Shown here piece after piece: positions 19,519 to 35,826 of a stretch of 44,032 nt of DNA. This DNA comes from Desulfocapsa sp. (lineage in GTDB: Bacteria; Desulfobacterota; Desulfobulbia; Desulfobulbales; Desulfocapsaceae), in contig JANTGG010000011.1 in NCBI GenBank assembly GCA_024763035.1, positions 1-44,032 on the forward strand. Direction: 5' to 3'. Every line of letters begins with the position of its first letter. The first letter of the stretch is position 1. The position numbers and the translations under genes were made by a program. The notes below the pieces were generated by a model. It was not told where the DNA came from, did no database searches, and was given only the letters and a program-made list of their open reading frames with translations.

Positions 19519-19594
19519 GGCGGCGTAGCCAAGCGGCTAAGGCACTGGTCTGCAAAACCATGATTCAGCGGTTCAAATCCGCTCGCCGCCTCCA
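19519..19594 (+). tRNA. tRNA-Cys (anticodon GCA)
   Basis: Seventy-six bases with encoded CCA. The acceptor stem GGCGGCG pairs with CGCCGCC (19584-19590) and is followed by discriminator T, the identity base of tRNA-Cys, then CCA. The anticodon GCA is at 19552-19554, exactly position 34-36. The T arm is AGCGG-TTCAAAT-CCGCT. The anticodon stem has four pairs and one C-T mismatch at its outer end. It stands directly before cysE and cysK on the same strand. Confidence 0.95.
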
Positions 19595-28923: not shown

Positions 28924-30656
28924 AATGCTCCTTTTTCAGCAAAGGCAATGCTCCAGGTTCCGGGCCCCATATGCACTCCTGAAGTAAGTGAGAGGGGAAC
29001 AAGGAGGATTTCGGCCTCCGGATAGTGTTTTGCCACAGCGGACTCCACCGTTTCCTGCAGCCACTCCCTGTTGTCAGTATACTGCAGCAAAATGAAGAGT
29101 TCCGCATCGCTGTGCCCGAAATCACGCAGTTTAGCCAGGGCGAAATCAATCTGCTGCTTCCTGTTTTTTACCGTTCCGTATTTTTGCACACCCGCAGGCT
29201 TCGGGCTGATGATCGGTTTTCGCTGCAGCAGATCACCGAGCAGGCCTTTGGGTTTTGAGACACGCCCTCCGGCAACCAGGTATTTTAACTGATCGATAAA
29301 AACATATTCCTGCACGGACGCAACAAGGCTCTGCACATATGCCAAGACCTCATCCGCTGTCGATCCTTTTGCAGCATGCTTTGCCGCAAGGATCGCCATA
29401 AGAGCCAGCCTGCCGGAGGCAGCACCGGAATCCACCACGTGCAGAGTTCCCTTCCCCTCCCATTTTCTTTCCCAGGCAGCGGCAGCAGCAACATTACCGG
29501 TATAGGCAGCCCCCGCAGCAAGATACAACACATCTCCAAACTGCTCACATGCCGACTGGTAATGCAGATGCCGTTCACGATTGGAAGCCTGAGCCGTGCT
29601 CACCCGTTCACCAGCACGCAATCGCTGGTAAACCGTATCCGGGACACAGAGACTTTCCGGAAGCATCTGCTCTGTGCCCAGGATATAACTATCCAGAAGA
29701 AGAATCCCGTATTTTCGTGCCGCATCAAGGGGAAGTGAGCCGGCACCGTCACTCATTATTCTGACATGATTATCTGCAAAGCTCTTTTGATTCCACTCCA
29801 TCCCCCCGGAATCCATCAACTCTTCAGACCAGTGACTGAGTTCTCCATAGCGTTTCAACTTCGCCTGCAGATCCTGCGGGTCACAGGTGTGCAGATGCAG
29901 TTTCACCCCCCCCTCTTCCGGCAGCACGACACCACTCCCGCCAAGGGCTGCGATCTCAGCCAGCATTTCCGGCTCCTGCCCGCTGGTGCTGAGCAATGCC
30001 TCCACACAGTGCTCTCCCGTAGGCAGGGCTGAGAATGAGGCGTTTATCTGCAGGCTGTCACCAAAAAGATTCGCAAGGGGGGGGATAGTGGGCTCATTAC
30101 CGCCTGCCACTGCGAAAAAGCCGTCCAGGAAGATGAACATACCAAGGGCTCCGGCATCCACCACCCCGGCATCGGTAAGTTCCGGCAGGAGTCGGGTCGT
30201 TTCCAGCACCGAGTCTGCAAGTATTCTACGCAGCACCGGAAAATCAGGGAAATCACGATGGGCAGGAAGCTGAGACAGGGCATCGAAAACTTCAAGCATG
30301 GTACCGGCCCGAGGTTCGGCTATGGCCTGATAGGCTGCTGCCCGTGCCCTTTCCACCTGTCCGTAAGGATCAGTGTCCGGACGCAGAAATTCTCTCAGGA
30401 AGGCAACGGCGATATTGCCGGAATTCCCCACACCGCGAAGCCGGTTCAAAGTGTCCGAAAGATCTTTATCACATTTGCGCAACGAAGAGAGGCTCATGCG
30501 GAGGTTGGCACCGGTATCCCCGTCTGCCACCGGAAAAACATTGATCCGGTCAAGTAAAGCGGAAGAAACAGAGAGATTTTCGTAGGCACTGATGCAGGCG
30601 GGAACAAGAAGAGAGGGAGAAATTGCGTTGCGATGATTCCCGTTTTCACTTAACAC
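28920..30656 (-). CDS. DhaL (DAK2)-DegV fusion, predicted fatty acid kinase
   Basis: A 578-residue three-part protein. Residues 1-200 are a DhaL/DAK2 ATP-binding domain (NVFPVADGDTGANL near 39-52, with metal-binding aspartates). About 205-275 resemble the FakA middle domain (CVEALLST ... VKLHLHTCDP). Residues 300-578 are a DegV fatty-acid-binding domain (IMSDGAGSLPLDAARKYGI, RVSTAQAS near 355, YLVAGGRVSKPKGLLGDLL). FakA and FakB together phosphorylate fatty acids to acyl phosphates, and this fusion holds both parts. It overlaps the upstream REC-GGDEF gene by 11 bases. Placement before acyltransferase, ACP and KAS genes suggests it activates free fatty acids for them. Confidence 0.9.
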   Translation of the reverse strand: MLSENGNHRNAISPSLLVPACISAYENLSVSSALLDRINVFPVADGDTGANLRMSLSSLRKCDKDLSDTLNRLRGVGNSGNIAVAFLREFLRPDTDPYGQVERARAAAYQAIAEPRAGTMLEVFDALSQLPAHRDFPDFPVLRRILADSVLETTRLLPELTDAGVVDAGALGMFIFLDGFFAVAGGNEPTIPPLANLFGDSLQINASFSALPTGEHCVEALLSTSGQEPEMLAEIAALGGSGVVLPEEGGVKLHLHTCDPQDLQAKLKRYGELSHWSEELMDSGGMEWNQKSFADNHVRIMSDGAGSLPLDAARKYGILLLDSYILGTEQMLPESLCVPDTVYQRLRAGERVSTAQASNRERHLHYQSACEQFGDVLYLAAGAAYTGNVAAAAAWERKWEGKGTLHVVDSGAASGRLALMAILAAKHAAKGSTADEVLAYVQSLVASVQEYVFIDQLKYLVAGGRVSKPKGLLGDLLQRKPIISPKPAGVQKYGTVKNRKQQIDFALAKLRDFGHSDAELFILLQYTDNREWLQETVESAVAKHYPEAEILLVPLSLTSGVHMGPGTWSIAFAEKGAL

Positions 30657-31638
30657 GGGAATAAACCTTCTTGCGGCGATCGATAAAGAAGCTGGACCCG
30701 GCTATCTCCTTTGCCTTTTTCTTGACCTGAGCACAGGCATCATTTACTTCAATAAAATGCTCATAACGTGACCAGCCCAGGTTAACAACACCAAGGCTTA
30801 TAGAGATAAGAGGCATTGAACACACATTACCCTGACGATCCACACTCTGCACACAGCCCCTTTCTGCATCTTCCGGAGAATAGAAAGAAGGTATCTTCCG
30901 GTCAAATTGCTGAATAACAAAATGAACTGTCTTTTCCAGCCCGTTTTCCGGGAGCAGGAGAACAAAATCATCTCCACCTATGTGACCGAGGAAGCTGCTG
31001 TCAGGAGCATGAACAGCAAGGGAATCCTGCAGCAGAGAAGCGGTATAGTGGATAATTTCATCACCCTTGGCAAAACCGTAGGTATCATTATAGGTCTTAA
31101 AATTATCAAGATCTGCATAGACGATATAACAGTAGGCACCCTCTTTCACTGCCAGCTCTATTGCCTTCCGGATGCTGTTGTTCCCGGGGAGTCCGGTGAC
31201 GGGGTTGGAGTCTTTTGCCACCTGATAGAGTTTTTTCAGCTCCTGGATGACTCGGCGCAGTTTTATCTGATGTCTCACCCGTACCTTGACCGTTGCTGCC
31301 TCAAAAGGTTTGCTCACATAATCAGCAGCCCCCACCTCAAAGGCTTTTGCATCACGCATGGACTCGGTTGCGGCAGAGATGAAGATAACCGGGATATCCC
31401 TGGTCTTCTTATCTGCCTTCAGACGCCTGCAGGTTTCATAGCCGTCGATGCCAGGCATCATGATATCCAGGAGAATTAAATCCGGCCGCAGCCCTCCCTC
31501 TATTTTCTCAAGGGCTGCCTCTCCACTGGTCGCCGGAATGGTTGCGTAGTCGGACTTTAATATCTCCATGAGCAGGTAAATATTTGCCGGTGCATCATCG
31601 ACTATCAGAACGGTCGTATCAGGATTGGCATCTGTCAT
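30646..31638 (-). CDS. Response regulator with GGDEF-type output
   Basis: A 330-residue protein: receiver domain at about 8-125 with phospho-acceptor Asp58 ([13 protein letters not shown]) and the KP switch (YVSKPFEAA), a helical linker (about 125-143), then a GGDEF domain. The active-site motif is GGDDF at 221-225, a variant; the RxxD inhibitory site is not seen at the usual place. It may be a diguanylate cyclase without product inhibition or a c-di-GMP-independent output. Its start overlaps the hybrid kinase stop by ATGA and its end overlaps the fatty-acid-kinase gene, so it is cotranscribed with both. Confidence 0.92.
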
Positions 31639-34600
31639 GATCGTATTGAATCACTTATCTTTTTCAGGGAATCAATGGCTCCGCCCTCATCAAAATTATC
31701 CAGACAGTCCCGTGCCTGCTGAACCTCTTCTGCAAATTCCGTATTCTGCAGATGCCCGCTCAACAGTGGGAACTTATCAATGGCAAGAGCATAATTCTGT
31801 CCCACCAGCTGCACAATCTCAGCGATCAGATCCGAAACCTCTACTGCCGTCTCTTCTGATAACTCTACAGTGTGGTCAGCGCTGCCTTTCTCTGTTTCCG
31901 GAGCAGATCGAATGGAATCGATACTTCCAAGCACAACCTGCATCGCCTCCCTGAAATCCTCTGACATCTCATCCACCTGTGACAATTCCCGGTTGGACAG
32001 TCCCGTTTCAAGATCTCCGGCGGCGAAAGCAAGCTCCCGTGCGCCAAGATTCGCTGCCGCCCCCTTGATCAAATGAGCCAGTCTCTGTGCCTGGTCAAAA
32101 TCCTCTTTGCCGAGAGCAGCTGTCAGCTCATCGGGAATATGCAGATAATTATCATAAAACTTAAAAAGAAGTCGCAGATATAACTGATCATTCCCACCAA
32201 ATCGGGCAACGCTCTCTTCCAGGTCAAATCCCTGTAATGTCTCCGGCATCCTGACATTCGTCATACGTTCACTCTGCTCGCTTGTTCCTCTGTCACCAGC
32301 CATATCAGCTTCCCCAAGGTCTTCCGACGGGCTGATAATGCCCGCCGGGTCAACCCACTTAACCAGACTTGCATACATCAAATGAGGAGTAATCGGTTTG
32401 GCAAGATGATCACACATACCCGCCTGCCGGCATTTCATCCGTTCGGTGTCCATGGCGTGGGCAGTCATGGCAATAACGGGAATCTTTGCCAGTCTCCCGG
32501 GAAGTTTCTTAATCGCTTTGGTGGCGGTATAGCCGTCCATCACCGGCATCTGAATATCCATCAAAACCACATCAAAATGATTTTGAAGATCGGTCAGCAG
32601 ATCAAGTGCTTCCTGACCGTTTTCTGCTACTGTAACATAAAATCCCTCCTTACTCAAAAGCTCAGAGGCCACCTGCTGATTAATTTCATTATCTTCAACC
32701 AGGAGAACGCGGGCACCCCTGATCCGCTGAAGCCCCTTCACGCGACTGTCCATGGTCAGACCGACGGGAGCTGCAAACACCCCTTTCTTGCACCCGCGGA
32801 CACTCATAATGGCATCAAGAAGCATGGATTCATCCACAGGTTTCATCAGAAATTCATTGATCCCAGCCGCCCTGGCATTTGCCCGGATTTCGTCATTGCC
32901 ATACGCTGTCACCATCAAAATCTGCGGAATGTTATCCGCATGCAGCTCTTCTCTTTTGATCCGGGAAGCTGTCAGATCATCCATGGTTTCCATCTTCCAG
33001 TCCATAATAATCAGATCGTATGATTGTTTATCCTGCTCAGCCTTATTGACCAGTTCTATCGCCTCCCCGCCGGACGCCGCCTGACTTACAATAAAGGAAT
33101 ACCTGTGCAGGATATCGCTGATGATTTGTCGTGCCTGTGGATTATCGTCCACCACCAGCACTTTCAGGTCAGAAAATTCATTTGCCTCCTGTACAGATCC
33201 CATGAGGGTGCCGGGCTGCATGGCAAAACCGGCAACAAAGCTGAATACCGTCCCCTTTCCGGGTTCACTGCTCACCTCTATTTTGCCACCCATCATCTCA
33301 ACGAGACGACTGGAAATAGCAAGCCCCAGACCTGTACCGCCAAACTTCCGGGTTGTGGAGCTGTCCGCCTGGGTAAAGGATTCAAACAGGACTTCCACCT
33401 GCTGTTCCGTAAGTCCGATCCCGGTATCTTCCACGGAAAAACGAATATCCACATGTTCGCCCTTTTCCCCCCGGGCAACCACCTCGGTCTTAACAAGCAC
33501 ATGCCCGGTATCGGTAAATTTAATACCATTAACGGTCAAATTGAGGAGGATCTGAAACAGACGCAGTCCGTCACCTATAAGGTTTACCGGCGTATCAGAT
33601 GCTATCTGAAATAACAGCTCAATACCCTTTTCCTCGGCACGAACTGTGGCTATGTTTCGCAGACTGCTGAGTACTTCATTGAAGTTAAAGTCAATCTTTT
33701 CAAGAACTAATTTTCCCGCCTCGATCTTGGAGAAATCCAGGATATCATTAATAATATCAAGGAGGATATTTGAAGAAGAATGCACCTTGGAGAGATAATC
33801 CCTCTGCTGACTGGTCAACCCGGTTTTCAGGGCAAGCCCGGTGAGACCGATTATGGCATTGAGGGGAGTACGGATTTCATGACTCATATTGGACAGGAAA
33901 TCACTCTTTGCCACATTTGCCGATTCCGCTTCCTGCTTGGCAACATTCAGGGCACTGTAATTTTCTCGCAACTGGCGCATCATGTAATTAATAAGAGTGG
34001 CCAGCAGGATAGTCACAAAAAGCGGAAAGAAATTTGAATAAATCTGGTTTCGACGTTGATCGACAAAAAACGACTGCTCCAGCAGAATGGCAAGATCCCC
34101 CATGGACTCACCCAGATAATTCACCATGGGCTTCATCCTGTACACATATTTTATCCCGTTAAAAGTGACCTCCTTATCAAGAGGGTAGGAGAGGACATCA
34201 CTACTCCCGAGATTGGAAAGTATGGGACGATGATCGGCGTTAAAAATTATAAAAGGTGACTTGATGGCGGTATCAAGCTGGGTGGCAAGGGAGGTATTGT
34301 AATCGATAAATTTAACCAGAACCACATAGCCGTAGATATCTCCAAGATCGTGGAGAATGGGAACAACCAGCTGCATACAGGTTCTATAGGTATTTTTCTC
34401 TTTCAGCTGCCGGATTTCCCTGCCGGAATTTGCGAAAAAATATGCGGGGATATGCTCGAGTGTGGCAACACTATCAACATCACGGATTAGGGTTTTAAAC
34501 TCTTTAGGGTGGATAATATCACTATGAGACTGGGTGTTCGTCACAAGAAGATACCTGTCTTCATCGAGAAAGAACACCTTGCTCATGTCATACTTTGAGG

Positions 34601-34913
34601 CAATGGTCTGCAGCATGACCTGAATGGGGCGCAGTTTGTCAAAATCGATGTACTTTACAAACTTCTGTTCCTGTTCTTTAACGATACTGCCGACCATATC
34701 GAGTTCCATCAGCTCATAGCGGATAACAGATTCGGCATTTGTGAGACGTTCGGAAAGGGTGGAAGAAACCAGTTCACCGCTCACCAGAATACCCTTGTAA
34801 ACGGCATAGCCGCCATTGAGAAAGATGAACAGCACCAGAACAATGGTGGTGAACCGGAGTTTGCGGATAAATCCCGGCTGGGCCGGATTATTAGAAGACA
34901 ATGGAGGGGTCAT
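31635..34913 (-). CDS. Hybrid histidine kinase with two receivers and Hpt
   Basis: A 1092-residue membrane sensor. Helices near 21-38 and 293-312 enclose a periplasmic Cache-like domain. Then come HisKA with His345 ([12 protein letters not shown]), an ATPase domain ([26 protein letters not shown]), receiver 1 with Asp638, receiver 2 with Asp786, and a C-terminal Hpt domain with His947 ([12 protein letters not shown]). All phosphorelay residues are present. The gene heads a run of minus-strand genes with overlapping ends (REC-GGDEF, fatty-acid kinase, GT2, acyltransferase), so it likely controls, or is controlled with, the lipid genes. Confidence 0.94.
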
Positions 34914-35009: not shown

Positions 35010-35780
35010 TTATTCTATATCTTTATCCTTCACGTCTCGATGCTCAAAAGGATAGCCTTCGCTCTCCCAGCGAATCATCCCGCCTTTTAGAACACCAAGA
35101 ACATTATCATAGCCATTTGCCATCAGATATCTGGCAACCAAGGGAGACTGGCGCATGGCCCAGTCAGTCAAAATGATGGGTCGGTCTTTGGGAACCTCTC
35201 CAATTCTTTTGGTTATGGTTAAAACAGGGAAATTTTGTGATCCGGCGATAAAATTCGGCCCTTTCTCAAAATTTTTAGGTCGAACATCCAAAATCAGCAC
35301 ATCCTCTCTGGCAATGAAATCAGAAATTTGTTTGGGAGTGAGCTTCTTGGGTCTGATATCACGAAATTTATTGTTGATAAACTGAGGATAGTTAAAACTG
35401 CGCCACTCCGCATTACCGCCGGTGAAACGATAGACCTGACTGTATCCTATTTTGGCTGCAAACCTTGCAGCACGAAGAGAGTAGGGTCACCTGGGCCCCA
35501 TACAGTAAAAGATAATCGGAGTTGCCTTATCTTTTGGCAGAAGAGCTGAGCCCTTCAGCTGATCGATGGGAATGGAGATGGATCCCGGAATATGCTGCAG
35601 TTCATATTCCAGTGCACTGAGAACATCCACGAGGATAACCGCAGAATCTTCCTCCATCATCAGTTTCGTTTCGGGGGCGGTTATTTCCTTGAACCCTGCA
35701 GCTGCCGCAAATCGAAACGAAGCAAAGAAGCAGAAAACACAAAAAAAGAGGCCTATCCTTTTAACTGTCACAGGTCGCAT
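35010..35780 (-). CDS. Tandem rhodanese protein, probable selenoprotein (in-frame UGA = Sec98)
   Basis: One 256-residue frame read through a single in-frame TGA at 35489-35487. Residues 1-30 are a signal peptide (hydrophobic, ending AAA). Rhodanese domain 1 (about 33-120) has FYC-MGPR-Sec-PYSLRAA, then YSQVYRFTGGNAEW; the canonical Cys is Cys93 and the UGA falls five residues later, where related periplasmic rhodaneses have a second Cys. Domain 2 (about 145-245) keeps the fold (ILDVRP ... GVLKGGMIRW) but has LTDWAMRQ where a catalytic Cys is expected. The frame and rhodanese similarity continue unbroken after the UGA, and a SECIS-like hairpin follows it. The start is the ATG at 35780; a GTG sits one codon upstream. 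It is probably a periplasmic sulfur-handling protein. Confidence 0.82.
35446..35489 (-). promoter_or_regulatory. Bacterial SECIS-like element next to the in-frame UGA
   Basis: On the minus strand the stem GCUGCAA (35471-35465) pairs perfectly with UUGCAGC (35461-35455) around the apical loop GGU (35464-35462). The loop begins 22 bases after the UGA. A lower stem CCUA/UAGG (35485-35482 with 35449-35446) closes the structure. Size, distance and the G-rich GGU loop match the SelB-binding hairpin of E. coli formate dehydrogenase mRNA. Confidence 0.8.
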
Positions 35781-35826
35781 CACTATACCGTAGCTGATTC
35801 ACACACAGGTGTCCGAAATGGAACAC

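Follow-up and report, generated by a model that had tools for sequence, protein, structure and literature searches.

A predicted tandem-rhodanese selenoprotein of Desulfocapsa sp. is encoded in a conserved pair with a membrane signaling gene, suggesting a role in sulfur or redox sensing

On sequence evidence, the gene at positions 35010 to 35783 on the minus strand of a 44,032-nucleotide stretch of DNA from Desulfocapsa sp. (the window; GCA_024763035.1, contig JANTGG010000011.1, positions 1 to 44,032 of the forward strand) encodes a tandem-rhodanese selenoprotein whose first domain carries Cys-x4-Sec in its active-site loop. Comparison across genomes indicates that it leads a conserved two-gene unit, in which the second gene encodes a predicted membrane signaling protein, mostly with a LuxQ-like sensor. 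The first-pass annotation had recognized the selenoprotein, a reading that is supported here, and had missed the sensor kinase gene directly downstream, which is probably the most informative feature of the locus. The genome assembly comprises 3.3 Mb in 209 contigs and is 92% complete.

With its only TGA (codon 99; 35487 to 35489, minus strand) translated as selenocysteine, the stretch from 35783 to 35010 reads as one 257-residue frame from a GTG start to a TAA stop, or as 256 residues when started from the ATG at 35780. Pfam Rhodanese matches both halves of the protein (6.5e-27, two stretches), with the first domain at 35400 to 35678 (54.9 bits) and the second at 35061 to 35339 (42.1 bits), both on the minus strand, in agreement with the earlier proposal that two short rhodanese-like frames lie in the same frame and are joined through one TGA. 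The first domain holds the canonical rhodanese cysteine, Cys94 (TGT codon, 35502 to 35504, minus strand), which is invariant in the rhodanese alignment A1 and is followed five residues later by Sec99 in the active-site loop Cys94-Met-Gly-Pro-Arg-Sec99. Residues are counted here from the GTG; the first-pass numbering, Cys93 and Sec98, denotes the same residues and is right when counted from the ATG at 35780. An AF2 model of the protein, in which Cys was put for Sec (mean pLDDT, 86.2), places the Cys94-Sec99 loop between a strand (residues 90 to 93) and a helix (residues 100 to 111), and its Foldseek matches in the PDB are mostly rhodaneses. The second domain has Asp207, likewise invariant in A1, at the place of the catalytic cysteine and is therefore probably inactive. 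The protein is probably exported, given an N-terminal hydrophobic segment (35700 to 35783, minus strand) that was judged by eye to be a probable signal peptide and that AF2 models as a helix at residues 13 to 25.

The same TGA recurs in related genomes. Some rhodanese match (E 1e-10) is found in 130 of the 193 genomes of the order, and the best 20 matches, which come from 13 genomes with the window's own included, carry exactly one TGA each, while the next match carries none. Since all of these best 20 matches share the feature, the in-frame TGA is not a product of chance, and a sequencing error is very unlikely, as 12 further genomes of the order have this TGA as well. In a 65-row alignment, for which loci were taken from the best and TGA-bearing matches in the order and not from all matches, the canonical cysteine is Cys in 65/65 rows, and the residue five past it is Sec in 41 rows and Cys in 24, with nothing else in the column (the rows of L093 and L094 sit on the other domain copy, which has Cys, and not on the TGA-bearing copy). 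Homologs thus carry Sec or Cys only (65/65 rows) at the position for which the first-pass annotation had proposed such an alignment. That annotation had also made its reading depend on selABCD, and the machinery is present in the Desulfocapsa genome: selA, selB and selD each score above their cut-offs, as does tRNA-Sec (74.8 bits; cut-off, 47). Within the window, the sole tRNA detected is a tRNA-Cys (gca) at 19519 to 19594.

When GTDB contigs were scanned, 44 loci were obtained, and 24 of these are clear orthologs with the same two-domain layout; the 20 weak loci (≤32% identity), where the column holds other residues, Cys or a gap, were left out of the counts. The 24 orthologous named loci divide into 16 with Sec and 8 with Cys. 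Among the Sec loci, 14 bear Deltaproteobacteria or deltaproteobacterial-group names and 2 are named Proteobacteria only, and the Cys loci are named Gammaproteobacteria, Thiotrichales, Neptuniibacter and Sulfurivirga. We observe that selB is found above the cut-off in 14/16 Sec-bearing named genomes versus 0/8 Cys-bearing ones. Two Sec-bearing loci are thus exceptions. For L127, a selB-like fragment lies where a contig ends; for L124 (genome G577), no selB above the cut-off was found, and its contig appears in the order search as part of G065, a genome that is 84% complete.

A predicted SECIS-type hairpin with a G in its apical loop is conserved in the clade. In the window it spans 35455 to 35471 (minus strand), has 7 bp and a GGU loop (35464 to 35462), and begins at the 16th base past the UGA. 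The first-pass annotation had described this hairpin; its position and its conservation in the clade hold up, but it is unconvincing from the window sequence alone, where it does not rise above chance in three foldings (z = −0.48 to −1.00) or against synonymous-codon shuffles (P = 0.14), and these nonsignificant results rule it out as proof from a single sequence. Across 28 Sec sequences (the clade's share of 50 Sec rows, with other Sec types lying outside the alignment), the hairpin is held in the same register without gaps. In these 28 rows, 92.0% of the hairpin cells are paired (84.9% in shuffles), 22 cells are changed on both sides (9.5 in shuffles), and the covariation score is 0.312 (0.188 in shuffles), each value lying above all 500 shuffles, with the caveat that related rows can beat shuffles without structure; this applies less to the number of pairs with two-sided change (3, matched by 197/500 shuffles) and to the further pair types (11, matched by 31/500 shuffles), neither of which stands out. 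Shifting the hairpin by 1 to 3 columns leaves 18 to 52% of cells paired. The main covarying pair, at columns 21 and 33 (C-G in 14 rows, U-A in 10, U-G in 3 and G-C in 1), occupies the third positions of two codons for alanine in nearly all rows, places to which the protein is largely indifferent. As to exceptions among the 28 rows, pair 24-30 is broken in 3 and pair 25-29 in 1, and the outermost pair, 18-36, is missing in 14.

In the eight Cys orthologs, 53.1% of the hairpin cells are paired, meaning that the hairpin is broken. The synonymous-codon test gives P < 0.05 for 22/50 Sec rows (one of them, the first row of L056, being a chance frame) versus 4/32 Cys rows, the rows being related and no combined P value being used. 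The row pattern of this test demanded U or C at the Sec place, and the exchange of Sec and Cys is argued from the 65-row alignment because the column there was not preselected for these residues. Could the TGA nevertheless be a true stop, whether in a pseudogene, through an error in sequencing or between two short proteins that are made separately? Such a reading fits the plain ORF listing, which cuts the gene into two ORFs (98 and 96 aa), and the nonsignificance of the hairpin in the window sequence alone, but it is at odds with the one TGA shared by the best 20 matches of the order, with the restriction of the aligned column to Sec and Cys, and with the hairpin in register, the complete Sec machinery and the selB contrast between Sec and Cys genomes, and we consider it hardly credible.

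Sec in a rhodanese is no new principle, since rhodanese selenoproteins are already known, and the first-pass claim of a probable new selenoprotein falls short in this respect: a 2026 review describes five forms of rhodanese-like selenoproteins, among them form 3 (NF041203, CxU) and form 5 (TsoB, NF045694, UxxxxU), the latter with two Sec residues five apart (PMC13188914). The window protein resembles the catalogued forms in having a rhodanese domain with Sec in or beside the active-site loop, and the two Sec residues of TsoB are spaced as its Cys94 and Sec99 are (PMC13188914). TsoB, however, is a DsbD-like fusion with Sec at both places, whereas the window protein has one TGA and Cys at the first place, and in the CxU form Sec lies two residues past Cys and not five. 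Neither model reaches its cut-off on the window protein (NF041203, 75.7 versus 115 bits; NF045694, 64.5 versus 805 bits). Form 1 (WP_010941598.1), compared by motif only, has a UxxS motif that fits the U-P-Y-S of the window protein and may share its Sec site, and the term CxxxxU is absent from the main text of the review (PMC13188914). In structural comparisons, the best PDB match in both sequence and fold is the Francisella tandem rhodanese 6mxv, in whose aligned sequence the second active-site Cys is missing; Bacillus halodurans BH2092 (3nhv, 3o3w) has a Cys-x4-Cys loop in the alignment, but it is a single-domain, all-Cys protein.

Because the order, the phylum and the Desulfocapsa genome itself contain more distant rhodaneses of this kind, the Cys-x4-Sec site probably represents a broader class, within which the window protein would be a distinct subfamily marked by its sensor partner. 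What is new here is this partner, the adjoining membrane signaling gene with a LuxQ-like sensor. A pair of rhodanese selenoprotein and sensor kinase was not found in the literature searched, a scope outside of which lie the 2025 Haft and Tolstoy and 2007 Olavius symbiont papers, which may mention it.

TGA codons are present in 4/13 rhodanese matches of the Desulfocapsa genome. One of the other loci (L001/L103; contig C14, 23129 to 23374, minus strand) is a second kind of rhodanese selenoprotein, in which TGA takes the very place of the catalytic Cys (YUHSGVRS) and the C-terminal part is ferritin-like by eye. Another (L004; C31, 15371 to 15652, plus strand) is a small rhodanese with an LYCAU motif (CxU, NF041203-like by name), and a third (L086; C13, 19167 to 20090, plus strand) is a multi-rhodanese protein with CGGPTUGMS, a Cys-x4-Sec site, and has TGA-bearing relatives in the order. 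Furthermore, selD (L116; C25, 2835 to 3770, minus strand) is probably a selenoprotein gene itself, with one TGA in KAAGUAAKLGP.

Directly downstream of the rhodanese gene and on the same strand lies the gene for a hybrid sensor histidine kinase of 1,092 aa (31635 to 34913, minus strand) with a sensor, HisKA, HATPase_c, two receivers and Hpt. Its LuxQ/Cache-like sensor region (33975 to 34844, minus strand) is flanked by two hydrophobic helices and is, by this arrangement, probably periplasmic. The next gene encodes a response regulator with a receiver and GGDEF (30646 to 31638, minus strand), which is likely the output of the kinase; its start shares 4 nt with the 3' end of the kinase gene, an overlap that points to translational coupling and a c-di-GMP output. 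The window kinase has no Pfam match in its sensor region (E ≤ 0.1), and one relative (L125) shows a weak sCache_3_3 match in its sensor, below the cut-off. The AF2 model of the sensor (pLDDT, 87.1) is predicted to have the fold of LuxQ-type periplasmic domains, which are its top Foldseek matches (3c30 and 3c38, E = 1.6e-8 and 2.4e-8; TM 0.71 to 0.73 by target length), the likeness being one of fold only at 11 to 12% identity; other Cache-type sensors, for example KinD and DctB, match nearly as well. The region before HisKA is homologous among the proteins that adjoin this rhodanese in other genomes, and the outputs behind the sensor differ, ranging over hybrid kinases with or without Hpt, plain kinases and PAS-kinase-receiver proteins.

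The pairing of the two genes extends well beyond Desulfocapsa. In 21 of the 24 named loci, the sensor HMM matches the gene right after the rhodanese, with 11 to 224 nt between the rhodanese stop and the first matched sensor position. In the remaining loci (L140, L141 and L142), the partner place is held by a GGDEF-EAL protein (two ORFs in L141), which the sensor HMM does not reach. One cultured strain, Sulfurivirga caldicuralii DSM 17737, has the Cys form next to a GGDEF-EAL gene. Within the order, 14/193 genomes have the sensor, in one copy each; these include all 13 genomes with this rhodanese, and the two genes are adjacent in 13/13 (12 retrieved loci plus the window). The other genome, G113, has a sensor without an adjoining rhodanese, and a search at E 1e-10 gave no hit to this rhodanese there. 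Its sensor protein (L199) is a same-family sensor kinase, upstream of which lies a 230-aa ORF without a Pfam match. In a sample of 395 genomes from the phylum, the sensor is found in 4, namely, three with this rhodanese and one (G233) with a weak partial match (54 bits); its 3.5 kb contain no rhodanese, and it was counted as a sensor without rhodanese. The same sample holds an A1 match in 18 genomes, 15 of which have more distant tandem relatives (4 of those with TGA), and the sensor is found in 0/15 of these. Since distant tandem relatives occur without the sensor, the pairing marks this clade and not the Cys-x4-Sec site itself. A sensor match was likewise found in 0/44 loci with a more distant rhodanese (L059 to L106), a weak negative result as many of these loci have only about 1 kb of flank.

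Distances between the rhodaneses and between the sensors correlate (Mantel r = 0.79, 23 rows, reached by 0/2,000 permutations), a value that is confounded by species history and that shared descent alone could yield. At several loci (L051 to L058, L128, L129, L132 to L135 and L137), two successive rhodanese genes precede the sensor gene, the first of the CMG type and the second of the CLS or CQS type, and each has Sec wherever the two sites can be seen; in L058, the contig ends within the first of the two copies.

LuxQ acts together with LuxP, a ligand-binding partner in the periplasm, and the genes stand in the order luxPQ. The arrangement in the window is alike in that the gene of a probably periplasmic protein lies directly upstream of that of a membrane kinase with a LuxQ-fold domain, which in the window is also a hybrid kinase. 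The likeness is drawn from genes and predicted fold, and it has limits, as LuxP is a periplasmic protein of the sugar-binding type whereas the partner here is a rhodanese, and sensor identity is 11 to 12%. By analogy with LuxP and LuxQ, we consider it somewhat probable that the rhodanese selenoprotein is exported and serves the adjoining kinase as a periplasmic co-receptor of sulfane sulfur or of the redox state. The fuller version, in which the Cys-x4-Sec rhodanese would sense periplasmic sulfane sulfur or redox state and, through docking, switch the LuxQ-like kinase (a c-di-GMP enzyme in some relatives), we hold to be an evenly balanced proposition.

To judge from the rhodanese fold, Cys94 would take up sulfane sulfur or become oxidized, and Sec99 could then attack the Cys94-bound sulfur, giving a selenenylsulfide and freeing sulfide. 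The reduced, persulfidated and Cys-Se-bridged forms of the rhodanese may dock differently on the sensor, as LuxP does on LuxQ, and the docking state would act as the on-off switch of the kinase (of the c-di-GMP enzyme in some relatives). Sec in place of Cys might make the switch faster and more easily reversed, and in the window the output would probably pass by phosphorelay to the adjacent receiver-GGDEF protein. Export, the sulfur or redox chemistry of Cys94 and Sec99, docking and phosphorelay are steps that we infer. As a general mechanism, a relay in which the rhodanese hands sulfur on to a conserved cysteine in the sensor was rejected, since sensor alignment A4 has no invariant Cys (one common position holds Cys in 8/14 rows), and docking is the preferred model for the same reason.

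Two other accounts of the gene pair have to be weighed. The selenoprotein could be a periplasmic sulfurtransferase or a polysulfide or disulfide reductase, the gene of which is merely regulated by, or cotranscribed with, the kinase. We regard this as unlikely, though a serious contender: the rhodanese fold and the canonical Cys are kept in the clade, more distant tandem relatives exist without the sensor, and periplasmic rhodaneses are reported to be well expressed in cable bacteria and Dv. alkaliphilus (PMC13047784), but the partner place is taken by histidine kinases of several layouts and by GGDEF-EAL proteins in three loci, a plain target gene is not expected to keep one neighbor from Desulfobacterota to Gammaproteobacteria, and the second rhodanese domain is without a catalytic Cys. 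Alternatively, the UGA could serve as a selenium gauge, such that the full rhodanese is made when selenium is available and translation otherwise stops at the UGA with less downstream kinase, the operon thereby reporting supply. The UGA does lie upstream on the same strand, with the genes close together; however, Cys orthologs without a UGA keep the gene pair, which indicates that the pair does not need the UGA, and any Sec gene in an operon has such a property, so that we consider this account quite improbable.

The co-receptor reading is the one that we prefer, and the pairing with a membrane signaling gene suggests that the selenoprotein contributes to the sensing of extracytoplasmic sulfur or redox conditions. 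Annotated genomes may well hide members of this family, since a plain ORF search breaks the gene in two and the protein stays below the cut-off of every NCBIfam model. That pairing with one sensor has been kept from Desulfobacterota to Gammaproteobacteria, and across the exchange of Sec and Cys, points to a specific and testable function in periplasmic sulfur or redox sensing. If this is true, the pair would represent a new class of co-receptor and would give a bacterial selenoprotein a sensory role, as a receptor of extracytoplasmic signals.
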